From Cliona cf. orientalis (taxonomy: Eukaryota > Porifera > Demospongiae > Clionaida > Clionaidae): DNA of 64,000 nt. A program made the position numbers and the translations under genes. The DNA lies in assembly GCA_963930775.1 (NCBI GenBank), contig OZ005704.1:558001-622000 (forward strand), read 5' to 3'. The notes beneath the pieces were generated by a model. It was not told the origin of the DNA. It saw nothing but the letters and a program-made list of their open reading frames with translations, and did not search any database. The stretch's first letter is position 1. Each line of letters begins with the position of its first letter. This document shows positions 39,110-64,000 of the stretch, piece by piece.

Positions 39110-41146
39110 ATGGCGACGCAAGGATTTGAAGGAATCCAGAAACGCACCGCAGCTTCAATGGACCAGGCTGTCGACACTTCCACGGCTGAGCAGCCGCCAC
39201 TCTTTTCTAAGGACACACTCTACCATGCTAGCCTGGGCTGTTACATTGTCAACATCTGTAACGATATGAATTACGAAATTGGTGGTTTGAATATACCCGG
39301 CCATCGGTTTGTGGAAGCCACCATGTCTATCCGAGGCTATGGCCAGCAGAAGCCCTACGTGGATCGATACATGATTGCCAAACATGCTGATGATACGTAC
39401 TTTGTAGCCTTCCAGGGTGACCGCGGGTGGAGGTCCAAGTATGCTTCATTTACTGATAGTTAGTTGGAAATATTGCATTCAGAGTATCCTCAATTTACCC
39501 TCCCACCCCCCCCCCCCCCCCCCTTCCAGCCTTGGAGAAGCAGACTGATAAAATCCCTGTTCAGTTCTTCTTGGAGCTGTTAAAGAACAAAAAGCGACTT
39601 GTTCTCACAGGTAGGCCTATCATTATGGTATGTGTACATGTGCATTCCGAGTCTTTGGAGAACGTACAGCAGTCCTGCCAAGAAATGGCTAAGAGATCCC
39701 ACCAATGAACACTGACTATTCTAAATTCGGAATTGTATCACTATGCATACACATGCAGGGTTCTCATTCGGTGGAATGATGGCCTGTCATATGGCGGCCA
39801 TTCTCTGGAAGGGAAGCTCTCTTGATAGAGACATCCTCAAGAAAAATATCATTTGCATAACATTTGGCCAACCGCTGATACCAATCCTATCAGTGGAAGA
39901 GGCAATAAACGATCATCCACAATTTGAAGACACCATTCATGCGGTGTACGAGAAGGATGACTTCTTTCCGAGGGTGTTGTACTACTATAATATTGGGTGT
40001 CAGCTCTGTCATGACCATGGCGACCAGATACTAGGCCAGAGCGATAATCCACTAGTGCTTCAGATGATTCAGACAATAAAGAGCCAGACTCAGTCTAAAT
40101 CTGGCGATCAACCACAAGCCACCTCTGTGCTAGTAAGTGGTGTTGTATAATAATACCTTTGGGGAGGGAATGCATACCAGTTAAGAATCCACAATAAATG
40201 CATAGAGGGTATCAATTACATGGCTACATAATATATTATTGTGGCTAAAATTGATGTTCATACAGTTATTATTCTATCATTGTAGGATTTCAGCTCATCG
40301 TTTGCCAACAGCTTTCTCACGTGTTTTCTATTCATTGAAGGGGTATAGACCTACAATAATCATTATGATTGTACATAACTAGTTAATAATGCTATTGCTC
40401 TTTTGTGTATGCAGCAAATACCAAATCGATCCATTGAGAGGGCTAATGCTCAAATATTGCCCTTCCTAAGAGAGTTCAACAGGCTACTGTCACAGATCAT
40501 ACCACACTCTGACAAGTACGATCCTGGCCAGGCGTACGTTGGCAATGGTTACCTCATGACTGCCACTGATGAAGGAATGCAGTGGGTATCTATGCCTTGT
40601 AAGACGATATCTGAAAGGGGGATTTTAAAACTTACTTCTCGAGATACTGAGCTTGATATTACATCATTCCGGAAGGTACATGGTTCATATAATTATGCCA
40701 TAGCTATTACATTATTCATTAATCACGGTACACTGCAGCATGATGTGATCACGTATGGAAGAATCTTATCTGAAAGTTACTTGGAGCGGGAGCCAGATAG
40801 ACACATGCCTGCTACTGGAGCTGTGGAGAAGGTTGGGCGTATTGGTATGCTGATCCCAACTCTGGCAAGGATAGAACTTCAGATTCACCCAAATGAACAC
40901 GTTCTAGTGCTGGAGGGAAAGAATCTTTGGTTCTGCCATAAACTTCAGCTTGGGGATTACAGCAATATGATTGATATCGATACTAACTTCCAGAATGTGA
41001 CACAACATAGAATCCGCTTTAATTTCCCTCCCAATGAGAGGCTGCTAGGTCTTGCAGCTGAAGGCATGGTGAAGATAACCCTTAACAGTCACTTTGCAAA
41101 TCCTATTCGACAGAATATGAATATTCAAGTAATACAGATGACATGA
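39110..41146 (+). CDS. Gene A: short class-3-lipase-like protein with C-terminal beta domain
   Basis: Six exons: 39110-39458, 39530-39610, 39759-40132, 40286-40342, 40415-40675, 40739-41146; 509 residues. Residues about 30-280 match the lipase-3 fold: a strand YFVAFQGD in place of the usual VAFRGT, then the nucleophile elbow GFSFGG and EKDDFFPRVLYYY, comparable to the lipase D-x-V-P aspartate segment. The last exon holds the beta domain shared by the whole cluster (VLVLEGKNLWFCHKL ... SHFANPIRQN). The paralogues C and E continue from here into a long region and a GTPase; A stops with TGA instead. It also lacks the CARD and helical modules, so it is a truncated or simpler member. The start could also be an upstream in-frame ATG at 39005, but that would overlap the promoter. 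No signal peptide, so probably cytosolic. Confidence 0.78.
39506..39523. repeat. C18 run inside a polypyrimidine tract of gene A
   Basis: The homopolymer ends 6 bp before the acceptor of exon 2 (TTCCAG), forming the polypyrimidine tract itself. Length polymorphism here could influence splicing. Confidence 0.75.
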
Positions 41147-41306
41147 GAAGAAGCTACACAGTATACGAAATACAAATATTATTATAGAAACCCTAGAAAA
41201 ATTAATATTAATTTGGAAATGATTTGAGGTTCGTCCCACAATTCGCAAAAATTACAGATTAGAATGCGCACGGAAAATTACCACACCCCAGTTCATTTCT
41301 GCCATA
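41147..41306 (+). promoter_or_regulatory. Spacer between gene A and CARD-kinase gene B
   Basis: 160 bp that must hold the end of gene A and the promoter of gene B. A weak GCGC site (AATGCGCACGG) lies at about 41262-41272. Nothing else was recognised. Confidence 0.3.
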
Positions 41307-43078
41307 ATGGCTTCGGTGAACACAGCACCAACTGCCGAGGAGTGTGCCGCCGCTGGAGAAGCAGCTCAAGAAGTGGTTAGAAAGTATTATGTGCAGCTGT
41401 GTAATGCGATCCCTAGAGGCGATGTTGTGGGGCACTTGTACGCCAATAAACTCATAGACCAGATCACTTTCGAGCGTTACGTAGAGTCTGGCACTCTGAG
41501 CACGACTGAAAAGGCGAGACAGGTCGTTTTAGACGTCCGATCAAGTGTTGCCCGTGGTTGCGATAAAGCTGCAAGTAGTGAAATAACCAGCTTGTGCAAC
41601 ATCCTTCGCGGAGAAAAGGACCAAGAGCTAACCGGGTTAGCCAACGCCATTGAAGGTATGGACCCGCCCACTGATTAAATAAAATTGTGTTTGAAAATTA
41701 ATGATAGTAGGGGCAAGCTTGTTTGTGAAATATGAAATACAGTAAAACAAAATCTTTCTATACTCTTATAGAGTCGTACAAAGATGAATGGGAAACCCGA
41801 AAAGCCGCGATAAAGGGTACGATCTTTTGGTCGTGGGTACATCTGTGGTGGTTAACATTGCTTGTGTTTGATTATTAGCTCAAATGGCTGACCGTGAAAG
41901 CAAGGAACTCGAAAAAATAAGGTTACAGCTCACTGCATTCAAAGTAACGAGCCAACTTCAAGATCCACCTGTGGACAATCTAAGAGAGATCACCGAACGT
42001 GTAATTCAGAATTTTGTTAAAATTTCGTTCGATACTGCCATGAATATCACAACCATCCGAGAGCAGCTCAAGGAGCTGCACGAAGATAATCTGATTTCAT
42101 CACAACAATATACTTGGGCCCTCCAAGAGGTTGAGAAGACTCACACAACTCAGGCTGATATACCATCTATTAGTAAGTCAATATGGTTCCTTTCTATTAG
42201 TATACCATACCATTTCACTTCCTAAATCCTTTTTTTGCTCAGATCCATACATTAGTGTATACCCATTGCCAGGCAAGCTTCTTGGCGATGGCCCACATGG
42301 AAAGGTTCTACTTGTTGTTGATAAGAATGGAGTTAAGCATGCTGCAAAATGCTTTCAGCGCGCTCATAGCAAAGAGTTTACTTCAGAGTTTGGGTTGCTG
42401 GCTCTTGCACGGCATAAGAACATTGTACAATACATAGGCCTGGCTCGACTTCCTTCCTATGAAAACCCGGCAGTGGTGATGGAATTGATGAATGTTGATC
42501 TGCACGAACGAATCTTGCAACAACCTTCAATAGAGCTTTCAAATAAATTCAATATGCTTCGAGATATAGCGGAAGGACTTGATTACCTTCACACATATCA
42601 GCCAATGATTATACATCGAGATCTGACCGCAAAAAATGTTTTATTAAGCACATCAGGTGTTGCAAAAATAGCTGATTTTGGAAATTCTCGTATGGTGAAT
42701 CAAGAGCAATTAACCGAGATGTCGTCTGTGGCTGGGACTCTTGTGTACTTGGCTCCTGAAGCACAAGGCAATGAATACAATGAAAAGATCGACATTTTCT
42801 CTTACGGTCACCTCATGCTGTTTATCTTCATTGATGAATTTCCTAATGTCCTCTCGTCGCCATCATACCCCGTATTAGATCCAAATAAGCCCAATATGCC
42901 AGTGCCAAGGATTCGACTCGAAACCGATCGCAGGAGAAACTATCTTGAGAAACTTGAGAAACGTCTTCATCAAGGCACTTCTGTTGTTGAGTTGGTGGAG
43001 AAATGTCTTTCAAATATACCGGCGGATCGTCCTGCAGCTTCTCAATTAGTAGAGTTTCATACTAAGCACATAGTCTAG
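41307..43078 (+). CDS. Gene B: CARD-like/helical/RIPK-TKL-like protein kinase
   Basis: Four exons: 41307-41655, 41772-41816, 41879-42172, 42243-43078; 507 residues. Exon 1 encodes a CARD-like six-helix fold (about 15-110; hydrophobic pattern VVRKYYVQL, LIDQITFERYV, LCNILRGEKDQELTGLANAI). Exon 2 is a 15-codon linker. Exon 3 holds the cluster-wide helical domain (ELEKIRLQLTAFKVT ... YTWALQEVEK). Exon 4 is a full kinase domain: glycine loop GDGPHG (about 244-249), ATP lysine in HAAKCF (265), HRDLTAKN (354-361), DFG (374-376) and LAPEA. All catalytic residues are present. The layout recalls RIPK2 with the CARD at the other end; family placement as TKL/RIPK-like is inference. All introns are phase 1, a format that allows exon shuffling. 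The paralogue is gene G. Confidence 0.85.
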
Positions 43079-43369
43079 TATTATATAATATGATTATAGT
43101 AGTTTGTATGATTTGTCACATAATAGCTACTTATTAGTAACTGTTATATTCTGAATAATTTTGTAGTACTATATCAAGGCATTTCCCAGTCATAAAAGCT
43201 TAATAATCATGTATGGCAGGGTTATATAGCCGGTTTATGGTATGGCTATGGGATATCCTGACTGTGAGAATTGCGCACGCGCAGTAAGAAAATGCAGTGC
43301 ATGTACCACGCCCCTTATGATTACTTGTACTAGCCGATCGAGTCTCGCTGACCTCAGTCCTGGTCGTTT
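43079..43369 (+). promoter_or_regulatory. Spacer and promoter upstream of gene C
   Basis: Holds the 3' end of gene B and, near 43272-43283, an NRF1-like palindrome TGCGCACGCGCA about 90 bp before the start of gene C. No other gene is seen. Confidence 0.4.
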
Positions 43370-46300
43370 ATGAATATGGAGGCAAAGAAGAGCGTCGTTG
43401 CAGCCGAGGCTGCTCATGCCGTGATCAGAAAATTCTTTGTTTCATTACATAAAGCTGTTACAGATGACTACACTCAAATGGAGCTTTACGCTCGCGAGCT
43501 GATTGATAAATCGACGTTGAAGTTGGGCGAGCCCGAGAGAGGTAGAAGGATCCTATTCGATCTGCAAGAGAAAATTAGCCAAAAAATGGAAGAAGAGGTG
43601 ATAGACGAGCTGTGTAAGATTTTAGACCAGAGAAAAGACGATCAAATGGATTCCCTTGTTCAAGATATTCGTGGTAAGTCAATCATGATTGTGACTATGA
43701 TAAAATTTAAAATTATGTTTGCGTACCTGTAGCTAATATATTATAAGCATGTGGATCCTTAGAGAGTTATAGAAAGCTAGAATGTTGTAGCCGTAGTGTG
43801 GCAGATGCTGGTGCGGCATGATGTCACACTGAGTCAGCTATTAGTATGCTGACTGTACTAGTATAAGATGTGTGTGAATAATATTAGCCGTTGACATACT
43901 GTAATATTATTGCTGTGTATCTACTATTACTGCCATGGATATAGTAATATAGGGTCAGCCTTAGAGGACAAATGTTAAATTAGCACTTGGATTGAGAATG
44001 GTACATCAGCCTATCACCATGTACTGAGCAAGTGCAAATTTGGATGCTTTTACCCCTATTGTTTACAGCTGCTTACAGAAAGGAATTGGAAGCAAGAGAA
44101 AGTGCAAGCAATGGTGTGTTTCACTCTTTATTTTATTTTTTTTTTTATTTCTAGTATGATAATGTTGAACTATAATTGTAGCTCAATCATCTGGGAGAAA
44201 TGAGCTTGAGTGTTTGAAAAAGCAACTTGAAGCTTTTAAGCTCACTAGCCAGATGCCAGACCCTCCTGATGGTCTCAACACAGTCATCGAAAGGACTCTG
44301 CAGAATTATATTGAGACATCTTTGGAAGCAAGCTTGACTGCAGATACTATACAGGAGCATTTGAATGAATTAGAATCGCTTCTTGATTCTGATATGCTTG
44401 CATGGGCTCTATCAGAGCTCAAGAACATTGTGAAGCGACAGGCACCTGCCGATGCCGAAGGAAAAGAAATTGCTCCCATTGTACAAGTTCAAGAAATTGC
44501 TTCCCCATTAGAAGCCAGTGCTCCTCCGCTCACATCTTCCATACTCCATCATGCCAGTCTAATTTGCCAAGCTGTCAACACTTGTGGTAACACACGATCA
44601 GTACAGGAGTTCCTGAAGCAAGAAAATCACGAGTTGCACGAAGCCTCGCTCTCACAGCCCCTTTATGATGATGATATTGATCGATATCTAATAGCCAAAA
44701 ATGGAAGCACAATATATGTGGCGTTTCGAAGCAAAACTTCACTCAAGAGCTGGCAAGAAAAGTATAAATCATTTGAAGAAGGTAAAATTAATGTTCGTGA
44801 TGTTGGATTTCATTCCCTTCATGACATGCTGTATAATTAAATAGGTTTAAAGGATCAAACCATAAAAGTGCCGATCAGATTTTTCATTGAGCAACTATTG
44901 AAGAAACACAAGATTGTGTTTACAGGTAAGTGAATTATCATAAAATTAATGAAAACTTGACCACGTGCCCAGTAACTGCATAATGGTTCGTATGGTAAAA
45001 GGTCGTCAACATAGCGCGTACACTGTCTAAGCCACATTGATGATGGCACCTCAATCGCAGAGATGGTGTCTGAGACCGACTCTCGACCTCGATACTGACA
45101 GTTTTCAATCACATGAGATGAATTCGACAGCGCCATACAGCTTCTGAACATCGGATTGGTCGCGGCATGGCCCCCGGGCATGCTCTGTGCGTGCTATATA
45201 TAGCGCAAGGCTAGCTTTATTTATCCACAGGATTACGTCATCCAAGAGAACGCGTGAAGTTCGGCCGGCGGTACTTATCAGAGAAGGTAGCACTCAGCTT
45301 GTAATGTATTCGCTGGATACATGCGTTAGATACTCCACTACATATATACCGATTTCAAGTCTCAGAAAGGCTCCATGAAGGCCCTGAATTTACTGGCAAT
45401 TACCTCATAGATTACACCATAGGTTTCATCATACATTACACTATAATTACCTCATAACCACAGAAAAGTAAATTGTGTTACTGGTCACGTAATTATTGTA
45501 GAATATAAAAAGCAAGTTTATTCATCTATTTAATAGGATTCTCATATGGAGGATTATTAGCCACTTGCTTTACTAGCCACCTCTGGAGAGCTGGTATCTT
45601 ATTGAGGGTGCCACTTCTGCAGAAGAATGTGATGTGCGTCACATTCGGACAGCCACTAATCAGCATTCCATTTGTTACGAACACAATTTTGAGATTCCCA
45701 GCACTTGAAAACACCATCCATCTGGTATTAAACAAGCAGGACAAGGTGCCAGGTGTGCTCCACTACTTTCAGCTTGGGTGTGTATTGAAAGCTCAAGAAA
45801 AAAGAGATGAAACTTGCAAAACCACTGTGAGTGAGGCTCAACTCTGAATCACGATAGATATTATGCAATTAATATATCATTATTATTGGCGTCTATTCCA
45901 CAGGATAATTATTTTGAAGGTCCATTTAGCACAGAATTTGCACATGCTGTGAGTATGTTACAAGAAAGGGTAAGCAAAGATCATAATATTATTATGTATC
46001 ATACCCTCACAAAAGAGAGCCCACTATAAGGCCACTCCAATATGATTAGTTGTTTCCCATTTCCCGCCCGCATCCTTTTCATATTTTCCAGATTTTGTTC
46101 ATTATAGTGTATTAGTATACCCGCTCTTATCTCGTTGTCTAACAGTAGCTTTGGCAGAGGTCGTCAATGTTGCTGGCGCTCTAATACGTATAGTGATAAT
46201 GAATAATGAACCGCCCGCCCGCATGCCCCAGGCTTTCTGATGAAAGGGGAAACAGTGAATCATATTGGAGTGGCCTAATATGAATATCCTCAATATCTTG

Positions 46301-49300
46301 CTTTGATCATTGAAAGAGTCACAGTGCCCACCTAGTACTGCTCATGGGTCCCTTTGCTAGGCTATAGTATAATACCGTATTTAATCTAACACAATGCATG
46401 GAAAAATTTTTCAATTTTGAAATATGCGCGTTTTTATGGTAAAGGTCGTCAATCGTTCCATATATAAACGTTATGAGAATATGTAAAATGCTCTATGGTA
46501 TTAATTTTTAGCATAATAGTGGTTGTGTATACTACTGCAGTATGCATGGGTTATGTTTTATATTTCCCAATGTAATGTTTCAAAGTTTATTGTTTGATCG
46601 CTACTGATAGGCAACTAAGGCATCCTACTCAAGTGCTCTCCAGCAGAGTCCCTCAAAGATAAAACCGACAGAAGTTTTGGCTGAAATTATGAGAACTCTT
46701 ACAGCAATGGGTGCAAGTGAAATATGGAGTAATCCTGAAATGCTGTTTGGAAAGTTCTACTTGATGAAACCTGAAGGTGAAAGGAAGATGGTATGGAAAA
46801 GTGAAGTTACCAAAGCTATAATGTTCAAGGAGTTGCTTCGTGATGCTCTCACGGAAGAGATAAAAGAAGCCTCTTTCAAACCAGTGAGTGAATAATAATA
46901 ATAACTAAGTTATATGGGTTACTATGATGTGCATTGTGTATTCAGCACACAGCAGAGGATTATCGACAGAAGATAATAGCAAGCTATCTCAGTAAGGAGC
47001 CTCCAACATCCATACCTTCCACCACAGTTAAGCGTCTTCAAGATGTGAGCTTTCTCAAGCCGAAAGGAACCACTGTCGAATTCCACCTATACCCAACTGA
47101 GCATGTCATAGTTCTCGAGGGTAATAATCTCTGGTTCTGCCACAAAGTGTGCATTGGTCGTCATGAGAACAGCATTGTGATTGATTCTCCATCAAATATC
47201 ATGCGACGATCCATCCAGTTCAACTTCAAACCGTCAGAGTTAACAGAGAAGCTTTGTGAAAATGGTGGGGTTCATGTCACGCTGTACAGCCATTTTGCCC
47301 AAGAAATCAGCAAGCGACTTCGTGCCAAAAAGGTAGCTACTGTGTTACTGTAGTGCTTTTACATTAGTATAGCATTATCAAAATTAATGGTTAGTCCACT
47401 TCCCTATAACTATTGTTGTGGCGTAAGTATAACCTCTTAGGGTTGCTAATACTCATTCCCTACTATTAGGCACATATTGTGTGGAATGTGGTGAAATTCT
47501 TGGTGTAATATGGGTTGATAATTTTATCCAAAAAAATATCAAGGGCTTATTATAGAGTCTATAACCCTTGATAGAGTAGCTATTATGTATGTATTAATGT
47601 AAAGTGTGAGCATAGCAATCTCACATTGACTTAACAGTACTTCTTATGCTGTAGGAACCATATTCATTTTCATTGAGACAAATTCAGCTAGCTAAGCATA
47701 CTCCCACGGAGATCATCCAGGTAGCATACTGCACTGCCATGCTTGAACAATCTTTGAAGCAAACATCTGTGAATCAACCCACAACTTCAAAGCGCTATGA
47801 AGTAGTGAAGAGCTTCTTAGAGGAAACAGGGAAGATCGTTCCTCTAGAGAGTGTTTTTCATGTGATTGCACATGATAGCAAGGACACAGCCTTACAATGT
47901 GGAAAAGCTCTACAGGTGTCTGGCGTCAACTTTCCTCCATCGTATGTAATGCTATTTTGCTGCCATGCAGCAGCAGCGCGAGTCACCACTGGGCTTACCT
48001 TCGAAGAGTTCTTGAAGGAGGAGAGGGAAAAATCAAGTAGTATGAGTTTGACGGGTGGATTGGAGCTGATGTTTCCGATTGCAGTTTCAAAATCTGATCC
48101 GCTTTTTGGTCCTCCATTGTCGACTGATGACATAAGTCTTGCATCAGAACCATTGCAAAATCAAAAGCAGTCACCTCCGCAGCCAAAAAATAAGCTATAC
48201 TCAGAAGTTGCCGAAAAGCTGCAAGTTCCTGAAGGTATGCCATCTATAGACACTCTAAACCTCCTATTTCCCTTCTCTCAGCTGTCTGAAAGCTCATCTC
48301 CGTCAGCTCAAAGACGGTCACCATTTCATGAAGCTGAACAGTTACAAAACGGTGTGCCCCCAGTCATGTCACCCGTGGCTACTATCAGATCATCACTCGA
48401 ATTTGGAGCCCTTCCTCCACGTACACCTCCTTTGGATTCTGAGCTGGCAACATATTTACAAAGGGTATTATCACAATTGTACACCAAAGCTCGTGGCAGA
48501 GGGGATAATTTGCCACTGATATCTAACCGGAGTATTGAACAATTTTGTCCATTCAGTCTAAAGCGTCATGTACCTGGAGCTACCTTGCAGTCACCTATTC
48601 AAGCTCTAATCGATGCTAGGCGGCAATTGATGTTATTCTCAGAGGCAGCTCAGCGAAGTGAAATCGGTACTACTCACTCACAGTCAGCATCGAAAATCAA
48701 CGAAGAAATGATCCAAGTGGTCAAACACATTCAAGAATTCAGTCTCAATATGTGTTCAGCCCTGCTTGCAGCATTTATGGAGCAGCAAATTCGAATTCCA
48801 CTGATTAAATCTCAACTTGATACTGCTAAGGTTCTTTCATCCGCCCAAAATTCTGTTGCAATGGGTTCCTGGGCCTTTGTCAGTATGAATTTGGAAGAAA
48901 TAGAGGAAATTTTGATGTCTTCTGAAGGTAGTCCATTAATAGTCGAAATTGGTGACTACATTGCTAGTGTGATTGAACAAGCGAAGAAAACTTCCACCAT
49001 GGGCAATGATCTGACAGACTTCCTTGCAGCCGACATCAAATATGCTGACAAATTGCTCTTTCTAGTACAGGGAATCAAGAGTGGAGCAACACTCACTTGT
49101 AGCACTCAGTTCATCAGCTACTCGCTCGAACGTCAGCTATACCAGCTCTCAAAACAGCTTAAATTTGATAAGACTGTCAATGTCAAGAAACTAGTTGCAG
49201 AATGGGATACTGTCTTCAAGAATAATGCCCTCTCCCTCGTTGCATCCACTCACCGTCCTCTGATAGCTCGCTGGCTAAAATGGGCCCTCCTGGTTCACGA

Positions 49301-50280
49301 CCTTCGTGAGACGTTAGCCGAATACACCTGTGTGGGAACCATTGGCCTTTCAAACTCGGGAAAATCTCATCTTGTCAACACACTGTTTGATGTTCAGGTA
49401 AAGCATTGGCCTCGTACTGAGGCCCTTCATAAATTTATATATAATATATAGCTTAGTGACATTGGTAATATGCATTGCTTTTTGTTCATAACATTCTTGT
49501 GTACTCCGTATATTTATTTTCTTAACTTGCAGGCACATGTTGGAACCACAGAAAAGAAACGTACAGTTGTGCCGTTTCTCTACAATATGGATGGTCGTAT
49601 TGATAAGCTAGACGTTATCGATTTCCCAGGGGTTGATGACGTGAACACTGTGCCCGAAGTGACAAAGCTATTGGTCAACCTTGCTCAAGTTGTCATTTTT
49701 GTAGTAGACTACAGGTAAGTATTCACTCCCCTTTCAAGCTTCATAGTCCTAAAATTATATAATATTATTATATTATTTTTTACTTAGTCTTCCTTTGTGC
49801 ATGTATTGTATTAGGAATATCAGAAGCAAGATATCAGTTGAATGGATAAAACAGCTAGGAAACGAAGATGTCCAGTTACTTGTGTGTTTGACCCATGCCG
49901 ACATACTATATTCAGAATTGAAGAGAGAACTGCAAGATTCAGACACCACCAACTTGAAGGACAGAATTGGATACGAGCTCGCTGTAAGTATGGGATATTA
50001 GTTTATGAATTGGCGCTAATGCTAGTTTTTTACAATATTATAGCTAACAATAGATAACATGGAGAAGGTGGTACATCATCCTTCTCGAACGATCAAGTAC
50101 TATTGCTTTGACCTACCAAGCAATGACAAGAATTTGACCTTTCAGGCCCTGAGGGAAGCTGGAATATACTCCCCTAAGGATGTTGGCGATTGGCTAGTGG
50201 AGACATTTGATCAAAAACTTGCTCAGCGCAAACTTGCTGAAAAGCTGAGTAAGTACCTAAACAGTCGTTCCATGTCCTAA
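43370..50280 (+). CDS. Gene C: CARD-like/helical/lipase-3/beta/GTPase protein
   Basis: Twelve exons: 43370-43673, 44069-44113, 44182-44781, 44845-44925, 45537-45826, 45904-45969, 46611-46883, 46946-47332, 47655-49397, 49533-49714, 49815-49983, 50044-50280; the frame stays open for 1458 residues. Order: CARD-like (about 8-98), linker, helical domain (120-205), lipase-3-like hydrolase (240-460) with IYVAFRSK, nucleophile elbow GFSYGG (344-349) and NKQDKVPGVLHYF; a linker; the beta domain (about 560-680; VIVLEGNNLWFCHK); a long mostly helical region with no family I recognise (683-1240); then a P-loop GTPase with GLSNSGKS (about 1246-1253), DFPGVDD (about 1293) and G4-type THAD (about 1351). An intron splits the P loop from switch I. 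Start could be the second ATG at 43376. A cytosolic immune or cell-death role is inference. Confidence 0.85.
46029..46276. mobile_element. MITE-like element in intron 6 of gene C
   Basis: About 247 bp bounded by AGGCCACTCCAATATGATT and its exact inverse copy AATCATATTGGAGTGGCCT. The match continues inward (TGTTTCCC near the left end, GGGGAAACA near the right end), and both arms carry CCGCCCGC words. It looks like a non-autonomous DNA transposon. Target-site copies are not clear. Confidence 0.8.
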
Positions 50281-51070: not shown

Positions 51071-51210
51071 ACAGACCACATCCTGATACATGTTCATAAC
51101 CACATTACCAGTCACGATAACCGAAATAATAGCTAATGGCTCCCTTTGTAGCTCAGTATTCCATGGAATCAACTACAGATGTGAGTAGCAAAGTAAATTG
51201 ATGGCTGATA

Positions 51211-51625
51211 ACTGATGTGACCACATATATATAGACAAATCTTATCTGAAAGTTACTTGGAGTGGGATCCAGATAAACACATGCCTGCTGCTGGAGCTGT
51301 GGAGAAGGTTGGGCGTATTGGTATGCTGATCCCTACTCTGGCAAGGATAGAACTTCAGATTCACCCAAATGAACACATTCTAGTGCTGGAGGGGGAGAAT
51401 CTTTGGTTCTGCTACGAACTTCAGCTTGGGGATTACAGCAACATGGTTGATATCGATACCAACTTCCAGAATGTGACACAACGTATGATCCGATTTAATT
51501 TCCCTCCCAACGAGAGACTGCTAGGTCTTGCAGCTGAAGATTTGGTGAAGATAACTCTTACCAGTCAATTTGCAAATCCTATTCGACAGAATATGAATAT
51601 TCAAGTGATGCAGATGACAGTTTGA
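51211..51625 (+). pseudogene. Gene D: isolated copy of the last exon of gene A
   Basis: From about 51211 the DNA closely follows the last exon of gene A (GAATTT-type beta domain, LVLEGENLWFCYEL ... QFANPIRQN) up to a stop TGA at 51623-51625. The frame is intact over about 120 codons, but the splice acceptor present in A is missing and no lipase, CARD or GTPase exons lie upstream. Nucleotide similarity to A is far higher than between the full-length paralogues, so the copy is recent. It is a non-processed fragment; transcription is not excluded. Confidence 0.72.
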
Positions 51626-51924: not shown

Positions 51925-54900
51925 ATGGACGGACAGCAGGAAGAATTTTGTCCCGAAGGGCAAGCTGCACACAGAGCGATCAAGTCATACTTCTCGAAGC
52001 TGGTAATAGCTATCATGAGAGAGAGTATTCCGGATACCCTATACTCAATTGGCGTTCTTGGCGATGAAGCGATGGACACGCTTCTAGATCGGACCCAAAC
52101 CGACAAGCAGAAGGGAAGGATATTTGTTCGAGAAGTACAAAACGCAGTACATATCGATCCAAAATGCTTCTTCAAGTTTTGTGACATTCTTACAGAGGAA
52201 AAATTGTCCAAGGATCTATCTCAAGATCTCAGGAGTAAGCCAGACTCTAGCTTCTAGACAATCGCTTTATAGTACCACCTCATATGATTAAAATTTAATA
52301 TTAAATTTGACTGTAGGTAAATATGATGAGTACTTGAAAGAAGAAAAGGCAAAATCTGAATCAAATCAAGATCGTGAAGGTGTGTGGCCTGAATGTACAT
52401 AAATAGCCTTGTCCCCAGGCCACTCCCATGTTTTCAATCAATGAAAAACCTGGGGACAAGGCTGATGATGGCTAGTATGGTCAAAATTAATGGTAAACCA
52501 TGATGGTAAACCATGATGGTAATCATTATAATAACACAGGTTTGAGTGGAGAATTTCAGCTACTAATGAGTGACCTCGACGTATTCGGTCGTCAGCTTAC
52601 AAGAGGAGTCAGCTCCAACAGTGATAACATTTTTCAGTGCATCAAAGACTCCATCCATCATGCAATTGACAGTGTGCTGAAAGCAGGTGAAGAGGTTGAA
52701 ACTGTTCGAGAGCAGATGTGGTCACTGTGTTACAAACATTTCAAGGTGCCAACGGATCTCTGTAAATGGGCACTGAATGAAGTCGACGCTGTGAACAAGG
52801 CTCTTCTACCTTCAGAACCTTCAGCTCCTGTCGAGCCAATTGCTCCTACTGCTCCAAGCAAGGATCAACCATCGCTTTTTTCCAAAGATACCCTCCACCA
52901 TGCAGGACTCTGTTGCCAAGCGGTTAGTACTTGCAATGCCGGGACCTTCATGAAATTCTTCGACAACCAAGTTACTAACCATCTCCTACAAGAGGTGTCC
53001 ATGTCTATTTCATCAGAAAAGAAGAACGTCGATCGTTATATCATTGCCAAGCAAGGCAATGTTATCTACGTGGCGTTTGAGAGTGAACCAACGCTCTCAC
53101 AGTGGATGGATAGTATGTATACCTCCTTTGAAGATGGTGAGTATTATAATATTATGTACTAGTTTGTGTCATTGTATTGTGTGCATATGTGCATGTATGT
53201 ATGATAATATCCATTGGCACATAGGTCTACATCAGCAGATGAATCGCATCCCTCTCAAATTCTTTGTTGAGCAATTAGGAGACCAAAAAAGGATTGTTTT
53301 TACCGGTGAGCTATTTATTAGTCAAAACAAAGACTATTCTCATACCAGGAGCGCATGATAAATCATACTATTAAAAGCCTGCCACCCCTAATTAGTTCTC
53401 AAGACTATAACCTCAGCCTTTTGTGTGTCTAAATAGGCACTGTAGGTGGGGTTGTTCCCCTAGTATAGATAAGGGATCCATGTGGAGGGTGGACTTTTAT
53501 CTTTTATGATACACTGTTACAGGGTTTTCATTTGGAGGAATGCTTGCTTGTTGCGTAGCTGCCAATCTTTGGGAAGAGACCTACGTCAGCATCGACACGC
53601 TACAGAAGAATGTCATTTGCATCACTTATGGGCAGCCAATGATCAACATTCCCTTTGTTCAGGAAGCTATCAGACACTTTCCACAGCTTCGCAACACTAT
53701 CCACTTAATCTATGACAAGGAGGATACATTCCCACTCGTGTTTCGGTACTTCAACATCGGCTGTATCCACTATAAGGGCACAGGAGTACCAGTGAAAGGT
53801 GTGAAGGCTCTGACTGCTGGAAAAAGCACAGTTTCTGAGCCTCCATTGGTTAAAGAGGTTAGATATAATATCTTGTATATATCTTTAGTCTCTGTATTCA
53901 TCATACACGCAATTGATATTCATTTATAGGCTTTTCAAGCTCTATTCCCGAAGAAATTTCTTGGTAGTTTATCTACCCTTCATGAGGTACTTTACATTCA
54001 CCATTTATATTGCTATCAATGAATTGATGCTAAAAATTACCATTTTTAGCAATTGTATTCCAACTCGGTGACCAGTCAACCACATGTACAATCGATCGAG
54101 TTTGCCCTCAGCAGCCTGAAAGAAACTCTTAGAGAGGTCATTCCTCACGAGGATGTGGAGAGAAATGTCTTGCTTGGTGAGCACTATCTCATTTCTTCCG
54201 AGGAGCATCAAGGGCTTGTGTGGAATAAAATAACCAAGGCAATAGGAGCTCAGGCATTAGGAGCATTGACCGTTGCAGCTGCCGAAAAATTGGAAATTTC
54301 TGCTTTTAAGAAGGTTAATATATATGATTAAATGATGTAAGCATTCTAAATTCATGATTGTTTACTCTATAGCATTCTGCTATTGAATATCGTCACAAGA
54401 TCTTCAGAAGTCATCTGGAGAAGCAGCCCAAGTATGAGATCCCTGGTCCTTCCAAGGACGTCAGGGAGATAAGCTCCCTAAAACCGGACGTGAAAGCTGT
54501 TGAACTGCACAAGTATCATAGCGAAGTTGTCATCACCCTGGAAGGAGAGAATTTATGGTTTTGCCACGCCGTTAGGCTTGGCGATACAGAGATCACAATT
54601 CCCGAGACATTGTCACGTCGTTCACTTACGTTCAATCTCTATGCTAGCGAAAAAACCGAGAAGCTAATGAAACGCAATGCATCGGTGAAGATAACTCTCC
54701 TGAGTCACTTTGCCAATCCAATCAGGAGAAATATTAAGGTCGATCAGGTAAGTCATTGTATAGAGTGAAGCCCTTTACCACCAAAGGAGTAGATGGAGGG
54801 GGGATTGCACTTTCATGGGGGGGGGGGGGGGGGGATCCACCTAGGCCTCCTGCCATGCACTGCTTTGCCATAGACTGATCATGTATCCCCCCCCACCACC

Positions 54901-57600
54901 ACTTTAAAACTCATGTCTATGCCCCATTTTAAATGGTATTCACCACTGTAGGAACCACACAACTATTCCCTGAGGCAGATTCAGCTGGCTAAGCACACAC
55001 CGACTGAGGTGATTCAGCTCGCTTTTTGGAGTGCCTTGCTTGAGCAGTATTCGCCACGTGCTGCTAAACATGATCAGGAAGCACCATCACAACGAATGGC
55101 CGCCGTCATCCATTTTTTGGAAGAAGCAGTGAAAGTGGTTCCCATTGAAAGTATCCTCTTCGCAATCTCTCATTCAGATTATGATGCCGGTGTCAAGTGT
55201 GCTGAAGCTCTTCTTGCCTGCCGACAGCAGTTACCCAGATCCGTAATGATGACCACCGGAGCTCTAACAGCCATTGCTCGAATGCGTACTGGATTACATG
55301 GGTCAGACATCGACAAGTATACTGACCTAGCAATGAAGAAGCTTGCAGCTTATTCTGGCTGTACAACAGGATTGTCTACTATTGAAGCTGTGAGCAGTGA
55401 TAAACTGAGATTTGGGTTTATACCTGCACTTGAGTATGTGACACATCTAAAATGCCCAGTACCCATGCCAGTTCATTCATATGCTGAAGCTGCTGCACGT
55501 AGAAACGTACCCCATTCATCTCGCCAACCATGGTCTGCTCCAATTGCAAGAATGGCTGATCTCAATCTTGAGATTGTTGTCCCATTCCTTAGCCCACAAA
55601 GTCATAATATGGATATTGACTTAAAGCCAGATCCATCAAGAGTTACCAATCCTTGCATTGCAGATAGACTGGATGAGTATTTACTCAAAACAACCAAGGG
55701 GCCAGTGGTACCAAATCGATTTATATGCGATCACAATATTGAGCATCTCTACCCAGTAAGTACGCACAGACGGCACACCTTATATGCTGTTATACTTCAG
55801 TCCCCTCTGGAAGTTTTACGTTCTGCACGTGAAAAGATAGCATCTTTTCTCAAAGATTCTCAGGAGGACCTTGATTCAAGTGCGCAGAGTACGCAGTCTA
55901 GTAACGAACAAATGCTTGCCCTCGTGCGGGAAATCAAAGAAGACAACCTAAGAATCTGTGCCGCTCTTCTTGGAGCTTTCATGGAGCAACAAATTCGCAT
56001 TCCACTTATAAAAACTGAAGATTTGGATACTGCAAATCTGCTTTCGGAAAAATCTTCACCGGTTGCCATGGGTGTCTGGGCACTATTTAGTGTGAGCTAT
56101 GAAGAGCTTGTTGCAAAGCTGAATTTATTGAAGGGTAACCCTCTCTTTGTCGAGATAGCTGGCTACATATCGGGAGTGCTGAGCGATGATTTTAAGAAGC
56201 CATCAAAGAAAACGAGCAACTACAACGGCAAGCTACAGTTCCTACTGCAAGGGATCAAGAAGAAGAAGACCGTTTCTTGTAGTGGCCAGTACATCAGCTA
56301 TTCACTGGAACACCAACTATGCCAAAATCTCAAGTTTGAGAAATCAACTTCCGTCAAGACGCTGATCCGTGATTGGGACGAAATCTTCAAGGAAGATGCT
56401 CTTTCCCTTGTTGCAAGATCCCATCGACCTTTGATTGCTCGTTGGCTGAAATGGGCAGTGCTGATCCATGATCTTCGTGAAGCATTAGCCAAATATACCT
56501 GCATAGGTGTGATAGGGCTAGTGAACTCAGGAAAATCACAGTTGGTCTCCAAGCTCTTTGGAGTTGAGGTATAGACGCTAGCAGATATATTTTGTAGAGG
56601 GGGGGGGGGTGAATTCTAGTATGTGGTAGCGTAGAATGCTCCTCCAGGAAGAGTTTGAAATTTATAGCCGCTGAGACTGTTTCTGAGACCACATAATTAG
56701 TTACCACAATCTACAATAATAGTTTAATACTTGCAATTTTCTGGGGTGGGGGGAGGGATTCCAGGGTGCCCAACCTCTGTATTACTCCTTGTGTTTGTAT
56801 GGTGTTGTACATGCATGTATTTCTGTTAGTTGTTCATAGTAACTATTGGTTTAGGCTGCAGTGGGTACTACTGAAAGAAAAAGGACGACGGTGCCTCTGC
56901 TGTACAATTTGGACGGCAAAGTTGATGGTTTGGACATCATTGATTTCCCTGGTGTTGATGATGAGGACCACAGTATCCCTGAGTTGGCACAGCTATTGCT
57001 TGGCCTTGTCCAAGTAGTAGTCTTAGTAGTTGAATATGGGTAAGATTTGTGTTAGCTAACTATGCAAGAGGATATTACGGTAATTATTAATTTTCTTTGA
57101 GAGTGTACATGACACCATGTTTATTCTCTTTCAGCCGGATATCAACGAAACCAGCCAAGAAATTGCTTGAATCTCTTCTAAAAGAGGAAACTGTCCCTGT
57201 TTTGGTGTGTTTAACACACGTGGATAGGCTCTATGTGGAGCATATTGACAAAGATGTCGATAATAACTGTACCCCACTGCCTACTGAATTCAAGAAGCGT
57301 GTAATTGGTCATGAACTGATGGTAAGACTGTACTCTGAATGTTAGCTTCAGATAATGATAATGATGTACTCTTTGCAGTGTAAAGAGGACGATATTGGGT
57401 ACCATCACTCATGCAAAATTGGCTTCTACTGCTTTAATCTACCTGCTGATTCCAGAGCTCTGTTTAGCATGGAAGATCTGAAGAAGGTTGGCATCGGCAG
57501 TCTCCAAGATGTTGGTGATCAATTGGTGGACATTTTTCGTAACAAGCTCAAACTGACAGATATAGCTTCCAGGCTAGACCAGTTTGTGCATCCTGTATAG
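51925..57600 (+). CDS. Gene E: CARD-like/helical/lipase-3/beta/GTPase protein, paralogue of gene C
   Basis: Twelve exons: 51925-52234, 52317-52379, 52540-53136, 53225-53305, 53523-53857, 53930-53986, 54050-54313, 54373-54747, 54952-56568, 56855-57039, 57135-57321, 57379-57600; the frame stays open for 1430 residues. Exon number and phases match gene C, but the protein is clearly diverged. CARD-like domain about 10-100; longer linker exon (21 codons, not 15); helical domain ending CKWALNEVD; lipase-3-like part with IYVAFESE, GFSFGG (about 350-355) and DKEDTFPLVFRYF; beta domain (VITLEGENLWFCHAV ... SHFANPIRRN); long helical region; GTPase with GLVNSGKS (about 1216-1223), DFPGVDD (about 1263) and THVD (about 1322). 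All key P-loop residues are present. It is the oldest split in the cluster by sequence divergence. Confidence 0.85.
52405..52463. repeat. Perfect 15-bp inverted repeat in intron 2 of gene E
   Basis: AGCCTTGTCCCCAGG (52405-52419) and its exact inverse CCTGGGGACAAGGCT (52449-52463) flank a 29-bp loop. Just downstream, a 15-bp unit containing ATGGTAAACCATG is tandemly repeated near 52489-52520. It could be a small foldback element or an intronic hairpin. Confidence 0.75.
54817..54834. repeat. G18 run in intron 8 of gene E
   Basis: A pure G run on the sense strand within a G/C-rich intron segment. Potential G-quadruplex former; exact length may vary with assembly. Confidence 0.75.
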
Positions 57601-57769: not shown

Positions 57770-58197
57770 TTACTTGCAGCATGATGTGACCACGTATGGA
57801 AGAATCTTGTCTGAAAGTTACTTGGAGCGGGAGCCAGATAGACACATGCCTGCTACTGGAGCTGTGGAGAAGGTTGGGCGTATTGGCATGCTGATCCCTA
57901 CTCTGGCAAGGATAGAACTTCAGATTCACCCAAGTGAACACGTTCTAGTGCTGGAGTACGCTGGAGGGGGAGAATCTTTGGTTCTGCCATAAACTTCAGC
58001 TTGGGGATTACAGCAACATGGTCGATATCGATACTAACTTCCAGAATGTGACACAATGTAGAATCCGATTTAATTTCCCTCCAAATGAGAGACTGCTAGG
58101 TCTTGCTGCTGAAGGTTTAGTGAAAGTTACCCTCCACAGCCATTTTACACGTGCAATTCCAGTTCGACACAATATTCAAGTTGTGCACCTGCACTGA
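57770..58197 (+). pseudogene. Gene F: frameshifted copy of the last exon of gene A
   Basis: Starts with the intron end and acceptor of gene A (CTTGCAG then CATGATGTG) and follows its last exon almost base for base. At about 57959-57968 ten bases (TACGCTGGAG) are inserted, a short tandem duplication of the preceding CTGGAG, which shifts the frame within the LVLEG motif. After the break the original frame resumes through the beta domain to a stop at 58197, whose end is diverged. No upstream exons of the family exist. A decayed fragment, recently copied. Confidence 0.85.
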
Positions 58198-58525: not shown

Positions 58526-58994
58526 ATGGAAGAATACGAGCGTAGGGTTGCGAGTGAAGCTGCTCGTGAAATTGTCAGAAAGTATTCCGTCGAGCTATGT
58601 TCCTGTCTCTTGAATCAGGATATTCCTATTCGACTCTATGCCGATCGCTTGATGGATCAAGTAACGTTTGAAAAGTACGTGAATCGTGCCATTGACCTGG
58701 CCGACTCCGAAAAGGCGCAATTGATCTTATTGGATGTTCAAAGAAGTGTTACTCGGGATGTTGAAGGCATAAACAAACTTTGCTCGATTCTTCGCCAGCC
58801 AGAAGATAAAGAATTGTCCGATCTTGCTACAGCGATAAAAGGTAGATAGCTAGATACTAAGCTACCAATGATGATGGCTTAGCTAGCCGCAGCTACTGAG
58901 CTCAGTACTAGTACTGAAGCTCAAGCATTCAAGTTTCTTCATGCCCATTGAGGAACTAGCTCAGAACTCCTTTCCACCTTGGAATACATGATGG

Positions 58995-59031
<37 letters not shown>

Positions 59032-60652
59032 GGGATAATCTTGTGAGAGGGGATATGGGAGGTGGGGGTTACGGTCACTGTGTACCAGGTATAATCACAA
59101 TGTTAACAATTCCATAGTAGCTATAGCTACATTATGGACTGACACATTTGGGCAGGTATACATAGCTAGTTACATGGGTGTAAAATCTCACTGCTGTTAA
59201 ATACGTATATACGTTAGCTACAATCAAACCTCTAGTAACTGTACACCATGCATATTTCAAGCTCTAGTAAAGAACTGTTATCCAGTGATTGCACTAAATT
59301 ATCCACTTTTATAGAGGCATACACATCAGAATTGGACGAACAAATGGCTGCCATAAGAGGTTTGTTAATTATAATTTTGAGTGTCAATCTTGATACTGAC
59401 TTATTGTCTATTCCTTGTCCTTATTGTTTAGCCCAAATGCCGGAAAGACAAGAATTGGAGAAACTGAGGAAACAACTTGAAGCTTTCAAAATTACTAATC
59501 AGATGGACTGCTCACTGACAGAAAATCTTAAGGCTATCTCTCAACGAAGTCTTCAAAATTATTTGGAGAAGTCTCTGAAGGGAGGAAAAGAAGTTCAAAC
59601 AATAAAAAAACATCTGAATGAACTTAAAGAGGACCTCCTAATTTCAGATGAAATGTGTACATGGGCACTTGAAATGGTTGATAAGATGAATTTGGAGCAG
59701 CCATCTACTAGTGAGTATTCTATTCAAACTTTGGCACACACTAAATAGCTAATTAAGCTTTACCCGATATACTTATGACTCAACTTTCCCTATAGATCCA
59801 TATATCAAGGTGGAACAACGTTTGAATAACAGATTTATTGGCGATGGTACATATGCAAGAGTTCAGATCGTTACTGATGAAAAAGGAATTGAGTATGCGG
59901 CAAAGAGATTTCTTCGTTCTCGCTGTAAAGAATTCAGCTCTGAGTTCACTCTACTAGCTCAACTACGGCATGTTAATATCGTCTGCTACATTGGCTTGGC
60001 GGGGCCATTCAGTCCAGACGAACACCCTGCAATCATAATGGAGCTACTAGATATTGATCTTCACAGACGTATCCTCTCTTCTCAGCCGATGGCACTCCCC
60101 ACACAACTCAAAATATTACTAGATGTAGCAGCAGGACTGAACTACTTGCACACTTATACTCCAATAATAATTCATCGAGATCTTACCGCCAAAAACGTTC
60201 TTCTGAATTCAGCTGGTTTGGCAAAAATAGCAGATTTTGGCAATTCACGCATGGTTAGCAAAGAGCAGCTCACCACAATGACATCCGGTGTTGGGACCCT
60301 GGTTTACTTAGCCCCTGAAGCACTTGGTAGCGATTATGACGAAAAAATTGACATTTTTTCATACGGTCACCTCATGTTATTTATCTTGATCGGAAAATTC
60401 CCAGATAACCTCCTTCCCGCATCCTATTTTGATAAAGATCCAGGAAATGGGATTCACGTTCCAAAAGTACGTCTAGAGGTAGATCGTAGACAGGACCATC
60501 TAAACGGTCTCGAGGAGAAAGTCAGTGATGATTCAATTGTGGAGTTGGTCAAAAAATGTCTTTCGAACAACTCAGAAGATCGTCCAGCTGCTTTGCAGCT
60601 GATCAAATTCCTAAAAACCCGTGTTGTAGGTGATTATAGTGCACTTTTGTAA
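58526..60652 (+). CDS. Gene G: CARD-like/helical/RIPK-TKL-like protein kinase, paralogue of gene B
   Basis: Four exons: 58526-58841, 59315-59359, 59432-59710, 59796-60652; 498 residues, same exon count and phases as gene B. The CARD-like domain (about 8-103) has REIVRKYSVEL, LMDQVTFEKYV and LCSILRQPEDKELSDLATAI. A 15-codon linker exon follows, then the helical domain (ELEKLRKQLEAFKIT ... CTWALEMVDK). The kinase has loop GDGTYARV, ATP lysine in YAAKRF (about 250), HRDLTAKN (340-347), DFG (360-362) and LAPEA, so it should be active. An in-frame ATG at 59248 in intron 1 would give a CARD-less form, but this is speculative. A 35-base G run sits in intron 1. Confidence 0.85.
58996..59030. repeat. 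G35 homopolymer in intron 1 of gene G
   Basis: The longest homopolymer of the window, on the sense strand of gene G. Long G tracts form quadruplexes and are length-unstable; the true length may differ from the assembly. Confidence 0.85.
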
Positions 60653-60935
60653 AATTAACGCGCATTGTTGATTTAATAATGTTCGAATGCGCGGCGCGCG
60701 CATGCATGAGCGCGTGCGCGTGCGTGTGATAATCACGTTGTACTTGTAATAATAGCTCATAATAATTACCGGTATAATAATATATACACATAGCTAGCTC
60801 ATGCATGATCATGCAAATTATAAAAGGGGTGGGGTATAGTGCATGTACGTACCTATAGTGCTTACGGCGTGACCCCGATTTGGAGTAGCTTGCATTGACC
60901 CATTTTGGCGATATACTGATCTCCGAGACGTAGCT
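60653..60935 (+). promoter_or_regulatory. Spacer and promoter upstream of gene H
   Basis: Contains a dense cluster of GCGC/CATG words (about 60687-60726, such as GCGCGGCGCGCGCATGC and GCGCGTGCGCGTGCG) about 220 bp before the start of gene H. These resemble NRF1-type sites. Confidence 0.4.
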
Positions 60936-63900
60936 ATGGAGGAAACAGAGACTCGAGTTGCGGCAGAAGCGGCTCACGCAGTCATTAGAAAATTCTTCGC
61001 CCGTCTTTACAAAGTCGTCGTTGATGGCAGTATTCCAGTCAGACTGTATTCAGAGGAATTGATCGAGCAGTCTACTTTGAGTCTGGACGGCGTGGAAGAC
61101 GACAAGGGCCAGAGGATATTATTGGACGTGCAGCAAAAGATAACACAGTCCATGAATGGCGACCTACTGAATGATTTCTGTCGAATTCTACGTGAGGAGA
61201 ATAAAAAGCTAACTAATCTTGCTAAAGATATCCAAGGTGAGTAAATGACTGAAAAATTATAGCTATACTGACTAATTATGGAGCGGCATGTATGATAAAA
61301 CCATCCCACATTCATAGTAGCTAGCAAGAGTAGCTTCGTACCCAAGCCCTTTGAGGGGGAGGAGAAAGGGCCTGGTTCTTATTGCACACGCATGCACCAA
61401 CTACCCCAAGAAAGCGCAGGGTACCACAAACGACTACGTTTTTTTGTCCTCCTCCCGCGGCCTAGGGTACAAGGCTACACCGATAGGACATCGTTTTGTA
61501 CTCTAGGCACGGAAGGAGGGCGAAAAAGCCTACGGTCATTCGTAGCACCCCAGGTTTTCTTGGAGTAGTTGGTACATACACGTGCAATAGGTACCAGGCC
61601 CTTTCTCCTCCTTCCGGGCCTGGGTACGAGGCTATGTTAAGAGTAGTATCTATTATAGCTCTAGTTTCCCCTCTCCCCTCCACCCCACATAGCTATCTAC
61701 TTGGTGTGCATGCCAGTGTGAGGCTTTTCTACATGCAATCAACTACTATAGTGTGGTGTGTGATCCTTTCAATATTATCTAGATGCTTATCAAAACGAAT
61801 TGAAAAAGAAAACGAGTGAATCTGAAGGTGGGTACACTAATAATATTTATTATGTTCAATATAAATACCATAAATCTGGAAACTTTCTTGTAGCTAATAA
61901 AAGCATATAAAAATTTTGTTGCCTGTGGAAATAGTCATGAATAGATTGAAATATTTAATTACTAAAGATTCAATCGACAATAAAATTGTCACCTTGATAC
62001 ACGTACACAGCCAGGGTTGCCACATGTTTTGCTTGAGTGTGTTTCAAAATTTTTTACCATAAAATATTTTATTATTTATGGTTGAAACAGCGAAAATTCC
62101 AGATTTACACATAGTTATTCTTGGCCTATATATACTATAGCTCAAATGTCTGGCAAAAGTGAATTAGAAGTATTGAAGAAGCAACTCCATGCATTCAAAC
62201 TGACTGGTCTGATGCAAAATCCTCCTGAAGGTCTCAAGAGCGTCATCGAAAGAACACTTCAGAATTACATTGAGACCTCACTAGAAGCAAGCGTAGCTCC
62301 TCAGATAATCAAAGAGCAGCTGAATGAGCTATGTGAAAAGCATTCGCTGATCTCTTCAGAGATGTTTATGTGGGCACTACGGGAACATGAAAAGCTCGTA
62401 AAGAAGAAATCACCTACTACTATTCAAGGCACAGAAGTTGCTCAGGTCCCCCAAGAAATTACTTCAGCTAAAGAAATAGGTGCTCCATTGCTTTCACCTT
62501 CAGTCCTGTACCACGCCAGCCTTGTTTGTGAAGCTGTCAACACCTGCGTCAGCACAAAATCCGTTCACGAATTTCTGAAGAAAGAAGGTCATGAACTGCA
62601 TGAGGTTTCATTCTCTCTTCCAAACAACGATATCGATAGGTACCTGGTGGCTATAGCTAAGAGGGAAGGCAGTCACAGTGTCATCTATGTGGCATTCCGT
62701 AGCAAACCTGCACTTAAGAGCTGGCTGTCTCAGCATAAATCCTTTGAAGAAGGTATAGTTAAACTCTATGATAATTTACTTTCTCCAGCCTTTTTTCCTG
62801 TTTTGAAAATATGCTTGATATAGGTTTAAAAGATCAAACCCTGAAAATACCTCTGAGATTTTTCATTGAGCAGCTTTTGAAGAAAAATAAGATTGTCTTC
62901 ACTGGTATGAATTTCTTAATCATGCACATGCATGGTCTATATACCAGATTACAACAATCCTATTACTTTATGAAATGAACATCAATTTTTATAGGGTTCT
63001 CTTATGGCGGTATGTTGGCTAGCTGTGTGACCAGCTACCTTTGGAGGGCAGGATTCTTACTCAGTGTAGCACTGCTTCAGAAAAATGTCACTTGCATCAC
63101 ATTCGGACAGCCACTGATTAATATTCCCTTTGTCGAAAATACACTTGCAAGATTCCCGGAGCTTGAAGATACAATTCACTTGGTGCTGGATAAGCAAGAC
63201 AAGGTGCCTGGTCTTTTCCACTATTTTCAAGTTGGATGCATTTTAAAGGCCCAAAAGGATCAATCGTCTCCCTTGAAGAAGAGTCCCCAAACAGTATGTG
63301 ATGACTGAGACCGTTGTACAAACTATATAATAATAATCATTATGGTCATTATGTACTCAATGTAAATATACAGGATTTCAAAGATCCATTCAGTTCACAG
63401 TTCATGCAAGCACTGTGTGAATTAAAAGAGAAGGTACATGCAAGTGTGTGATCACATGCACTTCTTATCCTCCATTTTGCAGTTGCTTAGAGTACAAGTA
63501 TAATGTACAATTGTTCTTTTAGGCCTCTAAGCCGTCCTATTCAAAGGCAGTTAAATCCCGGAGTCCTACTAAGACAAAGCCAGGGGATTATTTGGCTGGA
63601 ATGATGAAAGACCTGGAAAAGTTGGGTGCCCGTGATGCAACGCAGCCTGATCTTCTCTTTGGCAAGCTTTATCTACTCGTGCTTGATGAATCTCAAAAAG
63701 CAGCAACTATCGTAAGGTGAAAAGGTGAAGTCACCAAAGAAGAGGCCTTCAAGGAGCTACTCCATGATCTTCTCACAGAGAAGCTGCAAGAGGATGCTTT
63801 TAAGTTGGTAAGGAATCATATTTTACCCCACATCTGTGCGTAGGCAGTTTTAGACAGGGACAGACTCGGGTTCATTATGTGGTAAAATAATTATTATCAT

Positions 63901-64000
63901 ATATAGATGTGAAAATTTTTGCCAAGCCCATTGTATTATAGAAAAAAAATTTTTGCCAACACGGTAAAGATCGCCATATCTCTTTAACACAGGACAAAAA
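60936..64000 (+). CDS. Gene H: CARD-like/helical/lipase-3 paralogue of gene C, cut by window end, with an in-frame stop
   Basis: Exons seen: 60936-61236, 61783-61827, 62141-62752, 62824-62904, 62995-63293, 63374-63433, 63523-63807. The CARD-like, linker and helical modules and the lipase part (IYVAFRSK, GFSYGG, DKQDKVPGLFHYF) match gene C closely. Exon 7 continues the same alignment, but at 63718-63720 a TGA stands where C and E encode a conserved tryptophan (VWKSEVTK in C, VWNKITK in E). After the stop the homologous frame goes on to a normal donor at 63807. So H is a recent pseudogene, a null allele, a sequencing error, or it makes a lipase-only protein. Beta domain and GTPase exons, if any, lie beyond the window. 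Confidence 0.75.
61331..61634. mobile_element. 304-bp full-length foldback element in intron 1 of gene H
   Basis: Ends TAGCTTCGTACCCAAGCCC and, inversely, GGGCCTGGGTACGAGGCTA. Nearly the whole element pairs with itself: arms include GAGAAAGGGCCTGG / CCAGGCCCTTTCTC, ACCAACTAC / GTAGTTGGT and TTGTCCTCCTCCCGCGG / its imperfect inverse, down to a short centre near 61475-61490. It looks like a MITE of the long-hairpin type. Confidence 0.8.

Follow-up and report, generated by a model that had tools for sequence, protein, structure and literature searches.

A 64,000-nucleotide stretch of the genome of the demosponge Cliona cf. orientalis (positions 558001-622000 of contig OZ005704.1, here C16; called the window below, with positions counted from its first letter unless a contig is named) carries a tandem cluster of genes in which a CARD is joined to one of two kinds of enzyme. 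Five genes, B, C, E, G and H, are spliced and each begin with a CARD exon of about 100 residues followed by a four-helix domain (D2), then continue into a protein kinase in B and G, or into a class-3 lipase, a beta domain, a helical region and a GTPase in C, E and H. A sequence-only reading of the window had proposed that these five genes share an N-terminal module and a helical module ahead of either a kinase or a lipase-GTPase, and this was confirmed for five of five. Its 'probably' for the lipase-GTPase nature of H was borne out as well, since a helical region and GTPase were found at 64574-67485 when the search was extended past the window to the genome (216.8 Mb). H ends 3.5 kb outside the window and is followed by a sixth gene, I, at 69.8-81.6 kb.

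All features placed within the window cluster lie on the plus strand. In gene B the CARD exon (domain D1; 41307-41655) and the D2 exon (41879-42172) precede a kinase exon with HRD, DFG and APE motifs (42243-43078). Gene G repeats the arrangement, with a CARD exon at 58526-58841 and D2 at 59432-59710, both modelled as structures, and a kinase exon with its stop codon at 59796-60652, placed by its Pkinase match and by splice reading. Gene C opens with a CARD exon at 43376-43673 and continues with an exon holding D2, a linker and the start of the lipase (44182-44781), the rest of the lipase domain in several exons, with the serine in GFSYGG and the aspartate in NKQDKVP (44845-46883), the proposed catalytic histidine (HTAEDY) and the beta domain (46946-47332, from motif alignment and the aligner model), the helical region (47655-49310, from the aligner model and a Pfam scan) and a GTPase domain in several exons with the stop codon (49311-50280). 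Gene E has the most divergent CARD of the five (51925-52234), followed by D2, lipase, beta domain, helical region and GTPase at 52540-57597. Gene H has its CARD at 60936-61236 and D2, lipase and further exons from 62141 to the window end at 64000, continuing from there to the end of the GTPase. The CARD exons of all five genes and the second exons of B, C and G were placed by splice reading together with an open joined frame, and in the case of the second exon of C also by the aligner model. One exon of H downstream of the lipase has an in-frame TGA at 63718-63720, which might mean a null allele, a mistake in the assembly or an overlooked splice site.

Spliced models came from a protein-guided splice aligner written for this analysis. 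In C, E, H and I the aligner inserted some tiny additional exons into the stretch from CARD to D2, and its D2-kinase sites differed from those read by eye; we adopted, over its choices, the eye-read junctions, which lie at homologous positions common to the paralogues. At these junctions the CARD-D2 intron has a GT donor and an AG acceptor, is of phase 1 and falls at a homologous place in all five window genes, and the D2-kinase introns of B (42173-42242) and G (59711-59795) are both of phase 1 and homologously placed. A GT usable as a phase-1 donor follows the CARD or CARD-like exon in 13 of the 13 genes having such an exon, six of them on C16 and seven on contig C7. When joined at the eye-read sites, B and G are open to a single final stop, while the CARD and second exon of C, E and H also join in an open frame, the D2 exon of these three running directly into the lipase with no intron between. 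These homologous phase-1 sites and open joins back the earlier proposal that the modules are joined, and on the same grounds we rejected the possibility that unspliced frames had produced the common N-terminus artificially. The proportion of nonsynonymous differences (pN) was lower than that of synonymous differences (pS) in all 24 usable domain comparisons, the beta domain of C and H having been left out, and on the sequence evidence all five genes are coding.

Searching the genome with the CARD-D2-lipase-beta part of C gave 40 matches and with its GTPase 35, and both searches struck three places alone: C16 from the window to 639 kb, contig C10 at 2388-2436 kb and C7 at 840-907 kb. Fourteen bodies were modelled from these places (A, described below, with C, E, H and I on C16; c10a and c10b; c7a to c7g), all with a GTPase except A. 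The genome has, then, 13 lipase-GTPase genes over three clusters. D2 was found before all 13 of them and before both kinases (E 3e-44 to 0.0023, five of these copies being in the profile), and a CARD or CARD-like exon before 11 of the 13 and both kinases; a CARD exon was sought upstream of the C10 gene pair and none was found.

The first modules of the five window genes match one another in 9 of 10 gene pairs at E <= 0.01 in an all-against-all blastp of plus-strand frames, the strongest match being C-H (1.1e-27) and the weakest B-E (0.004), with the C-E pair not among the matches listed. By the same method the helical module and lipase start of C match those of H at 7e-81, and the kinases of B and G match at 1e-106. 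CARDs assemble via CARD-CARD contacts. A single AlphaFold2 (AF2) model of exon 1 of gene G is an antiparallel six-helix bundle with a bent first helix (helices 2-19/21-28, 33-39, 45-53, 60-77, 80-89 and 95-104) and a predicted local distance difference test score (pLDDT) of 84.5, and in fold comparison its matches are CARDs and other death folds, or designs. The suggestion that the N-terminal module is a death-fold domain is thus upheld, as a predicted structure. The structural aligner carries a general caution on helical bundles that applies to this comparison; a merely generic helical bundle was considered for D1 and rejected, as the structural list for D1 consists of death folds or designs, and that for D2 does not. 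Sequence profiles see less of this domain: against the Pfam CARD family (cut-off 23.9 bits) two of 13 first exons match at E <= 1, those of gene I (22.2 bits) and c7a (13.7 bits), and none of the five window copies. With a 10-row CARD profile the caspase-9 matches in the PDB were lost, and a 13-row profile recovers its own members by construction. The D2 model, from exon 2 of gene G, has no clear structural relative, a missing match that does not show a new fold.

The kinases of B and G score 132.9 and 133.8 bits against Pkinase (cut-off 31.7), and HRD, DFG and APE are present in both. Among solved structures, those closest to them at E <= 1e-20 are TNNI3K and, from plants, SYMRK and CERK1, and in the genome search the B kinase is closest to that of G at 57%, with the next at 50%, among the matches listed. 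We considered whether a CARD is common to other close kinases and rejected this: at six of the eight kinase loci inspected (from at least 131 kinase matches in the genome), outside the cluster, nothing within 1.5 kb matched a CARD or D2 with an E value under 0.2.

Lipase_3 (cut-off 22 bits) is matched by A at 28.4 bits, by C at 26.1 as an exon and 37.4 when spliced, and, in the genome search, by E at 27.2 and H at 29.5. The catalytic serine is present in 13 of the 14 models, the aspartate in 13 and a later histidine, assigned by conservation and a known motif, in all 14; the gene I model is without the nucleophile serine, and that of c10b without the aspartate. The beta domain gave no good Pfam family match, only a trace of TIG for the gene E copy (E 0.14), and the helical region of about 500 residues gave no Pfam family match in C, neither a repeat-type ligand domain nor an EP domain. 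The GTPase is of MMR_HSR1 type (cut-off 21.9 bits), with 39.4 bits for C as spliced and 29.9 for c7f. Its P-loop and DxP motif are present in 13 of 13; at the guanine-specificity motif N/TKxD all 13 have an unusual TxxD replacing NKxD. No Pfam match to an NLR signature, that is to NACHT or NB-ARC with LRR, was found in the scanned pieces of A, B, C, E and G, or in the CARD of H.

On C7, two types of first exon are distributed over two types of body. Type 1 exons belong to c7a, c, d and g and type 2 exons to b, e and f, whereas body one is found in a, e and g and body two in b, c, d and f, so that all four combinations are present. A query with the c7a exon recovers those of c, d and g, not b, e or f. 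The CARD tree rejects both body groupings in approximately unbiased (AU) tests (p 5.7e-5 and 3.6e-5), and the body tree rejects both exon groupings (p 2.6e-5 and 1.0e-6), the groups having been named after the trees were seen. This mismatch would reflect an exchange of first exons via the phase-1 intron, for which inversions involving a head-to-head pair may be responsible. A CARD profile built from C16 alone reaches the C7 exons weakly (c7a at E 0.0025, c7g at 0.025, the others at 0.5 or above or absent), with profile-profile probabilities between C16 and C7 exons of 31-36%. Because of this weak reach we call the C7 exons CARD-like and do not call them CARDs; their putative kinship with the C16 CARDs is drawn from place, splice phase and weak profile ranking.

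Head-to-head pairs on C7 with unlike first exons have short shared upstream regions (C7 846171-846947 and 896943-898136), their start codons lying 123 bp apart for a-b and about 0.4 kb apart for f-g, by the start codons chosen. Directly before the c7e body, which extends to 889368, an open frame at C7 881001-882572 (plus strand) has a RING and two B-boxes over cut-off, together with a coiled-coil-looking stretch and a CARD-like end. Through a putative splice to D2, this frame and the c7e body may form a TRIM-CARD-lipase-GTPase fusion.

In the body tree C groups with H, and E with I (both 100/100), while a grouping of C and E is rejected (p 1.6e-60). The CARD tree joins B and G (93/92, unstarred) in a group of their own that neighbours C and H. 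From the body pairs, the B-G pairing of CARDs and the closeness of the B and G kinases, we favour reading the cluster as a unit of kinase, lipase-GTPase 1 and lipase-GTPase 2 that was duplicated in tandem long ago, giving (B, C, E) and (G, H, I). Duplicate pairs have a pS of 0.64-0.94 (0.41 in the C-H comparison of the 29-codon P-loop exon) against a pN of 0.10-0.45, and since synonymous sites are near saturation the duplication of the unit is old. By domain, pN is highest in the CARDs (0.31-0.45), lower or similar in D2, kinase, lipase and beta domain (0.13-0.37) and lowest in the helical and P-loop exons (0.10-0.20).

The anatomy of these genes is well supported; from it we infer a mechanism, in which an upstream CARD sensor or self-nucleation would start a CARD oligomer, and the kinase and lipase-GTPase would gather on it via CARD-CARD contacts. 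Binding or hydrolysis of GTP would time the release of the lipase onto membrane lipids, giving lipid signals or cell killing, and the kinase would phosphorylate members of the assembly or downstream targets. Candidate sensors exist, because the genome has at least 104 NACHT and 71 CARD matches; none of the 104 listed NACHT matches, for which 103 of 490 candidates were scored, falls in the three lipase-GTPase clusters. We prefer to read the cluster genes as demosponge effectors of immunity or cell death that are tethered by CARDs, with a confidence somewhat short of an even chance. It is plausible that kinase and lipase-GTPase act in one pathway, on the circumstantial grounds that the unit of three genes is conserved and that both kinds of gene carry CARD-D2. 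More tentative, and on balance doubtful, is the larger proposal of an undescribed branch of sponge immunity, in which swappable CARD exons would form a common adaptor code for kinase, lipase-GTPase and TRIM-like lipase-GTPase, head-to-head pairs with unlike CARDs would be sensor and executor, and the GTP switch would gate a membrane lipase.

The roles might instead be divided differently, with the lipase-GTPase as sensor and switch, its helical region and GTPase sensing and its lipase either effector or regulatory, and the CARD-D2 kinases as recruited partners, much as NOD receptors recruit a CARD kinase. Such a division is in keeping with the extensive helical sequence, assigned to no family, that precedes the GTPase, with the N-terminal CARD on a big NTPase protein and with the gene order, in which a kinase gene comes immediately before a lipase-GTPase gene in both units (B-C and G-H). 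We nevertheless consider it unlikely: by Pfam the helical region of C is without a repeat-type ligand domain, and the inspected regions of C7 and C10 yielded no kinase of this kind. Somewhat less probable again is that the two enzymes serve separate pathways, CARD-D2 being a self-assembling tag copied onto the kinase by exon shuffling and adjacency reflecting tandem duplication only. Phase-1 introns flank D2 on both sides in the kinase genes, first exons on C7 move between bodies, and the B and G CARDs group together, apart from those of adjoining C and H; yet the three-gene order has been kept in both copies despite near-saturated synonymous sites. This rival is serious because exon exchange is shown in the same gene family. 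The weak kinship of the C7 exons with the C16 CARDs lowers the odds of the larger proposal of swappable CARDs. Ordinary lipid signalling, by diacylglycerol-lipase-like enzymes on a CARD-like scaffold with no role in immunity or death, would suit the intact triad and the Lipase_3 match but is quite improbable, as the clustered expansion, first-exon swapping and TRIM-like frame fit immune genes better.

Several known systems resemble the effectors proposed here in part. RIPK2 and other animal CARD kinases combine a CARD with a protein kinase, but in the RIPK type the kinase is N-terminal and the CARD C-terminal, whereas the sponge kinases have the CARD as first exon and D2 between CARD and kinase. 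In plant EDS1, PAD4 and SAG101, which act in immunity, a helical domain comes after a class-3 lipase fold; in the sponge genes the catalytic set is intact, a CARD and a GTPase are added, and the helical region of C has no Pfam EP match. Bacterial CARD-NLR anti-phage systems (Wein et al. 2025, as described in PMC13236601) likewise place a CARD upstream of a membrane-acting effector and, in that description, include phospholipases among their effectors, in place of gasdermins. There the CARD protein, NLR-like protein and effector are bacterial, while the sponge CARD, lipase and GTPase form one eukaryotic chain, with no listed NACHT match inside the sponge clusters. Fungal NLRs with N-terminal lipase domains, sesB-like and Patatin, as presented in PMC4986451, also couple a lipase, as proposed direct effector, to an NTPase switch, although the switch is a STAND NTPase and not an MMR_HSR1-type GTPase, and the lipase families differ. 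Dysidea avara, another demosponge, has CARD-bearing immune candidates (PMC12909245), but these are CARD-NACHT-LRR genes, and the available text of that paper holds no words beginning with lipase or GTPase. Words beginning with 'lipase' (words such as phospholipase not being counted) are absent from the available text of PMC8195603, PMC12909245, PMC7159879 and PMC8242945.

The sequence-only reading knew of no described animal system with this gene content, and a literature search of open-access full texts, most subscription papers being outside its scope, agrees among the best matches listed. CARD-based effector proteins are a known kind; it looks as if this combination of parts is described nowhere in the literature searched. 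We also considered a recent gain from bacteria or viruses and rejected it for the GTPase part: of the stretches matching an alignment pattern from the helical end and GTPase (157 in genome_contigs and 58 in viral_contigs), none was a relative by tblastn, so that no relatives of this part were found in bacterial, archaeal or viral contigs, the lipase and CARD parts not having been scanned. In this early-branching animal CARDs are directly fused to two kinds of enzyme body, a lipase-GTPase and a kinase, with neither NLR nor caspase nor gasdermin in the scanned parts of these genes. The CARD-lipase arrangement parallels bacterial CARD systems with phospholipases and the immune lipases of plants and fungi, the CARD fusions bear on the origin of the animal death-fold code, and CARD specificity could be studied with the first-exon swaps that nature already provides.

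The remaining features of the cluster are smaller. Gene A (39110-41146, plus strand) is a class-3 lipase with the beta domain, without helical region or GTPase, and a CARD or D2 match was sought upstream of it and none found. Orphan copies of its last exon occur as fragment D (51221-51622, plus strand, 91% DNA identity) and fragment F (57774-58191, plus strand, with a broken frame), and past the window at 68349-68594 and 71670-71950. These copies are 82-91% identical to A in DNA, although neighbouring genes are near synonymous saturation, and they read as recent copies or gene conversion. After the GTPase of gene I, frames at 81669-83326 match ZU5 (Pfam E 1.6e-7) and, under cut-off, a Death-like domain (E 0.012), and may be either the C-terminus of I or a separate gene. 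At the cluster edge, frames on the minus strand at 37104-38584 seem to resemble the mitochondrial methyltransferase NDUFAF7, and we take them to be an ordinary neighbour. Elsewhere in the genome, a DNA pattern for the silicatein-like active site, with serine for the cathepsin cysteine, matches at six sites, of which three fall inside 5 kb of contig C12; silicateins mark demosponges. One match that was read encodes QGQCGASYAFSAMG in a cathepsin-like context.

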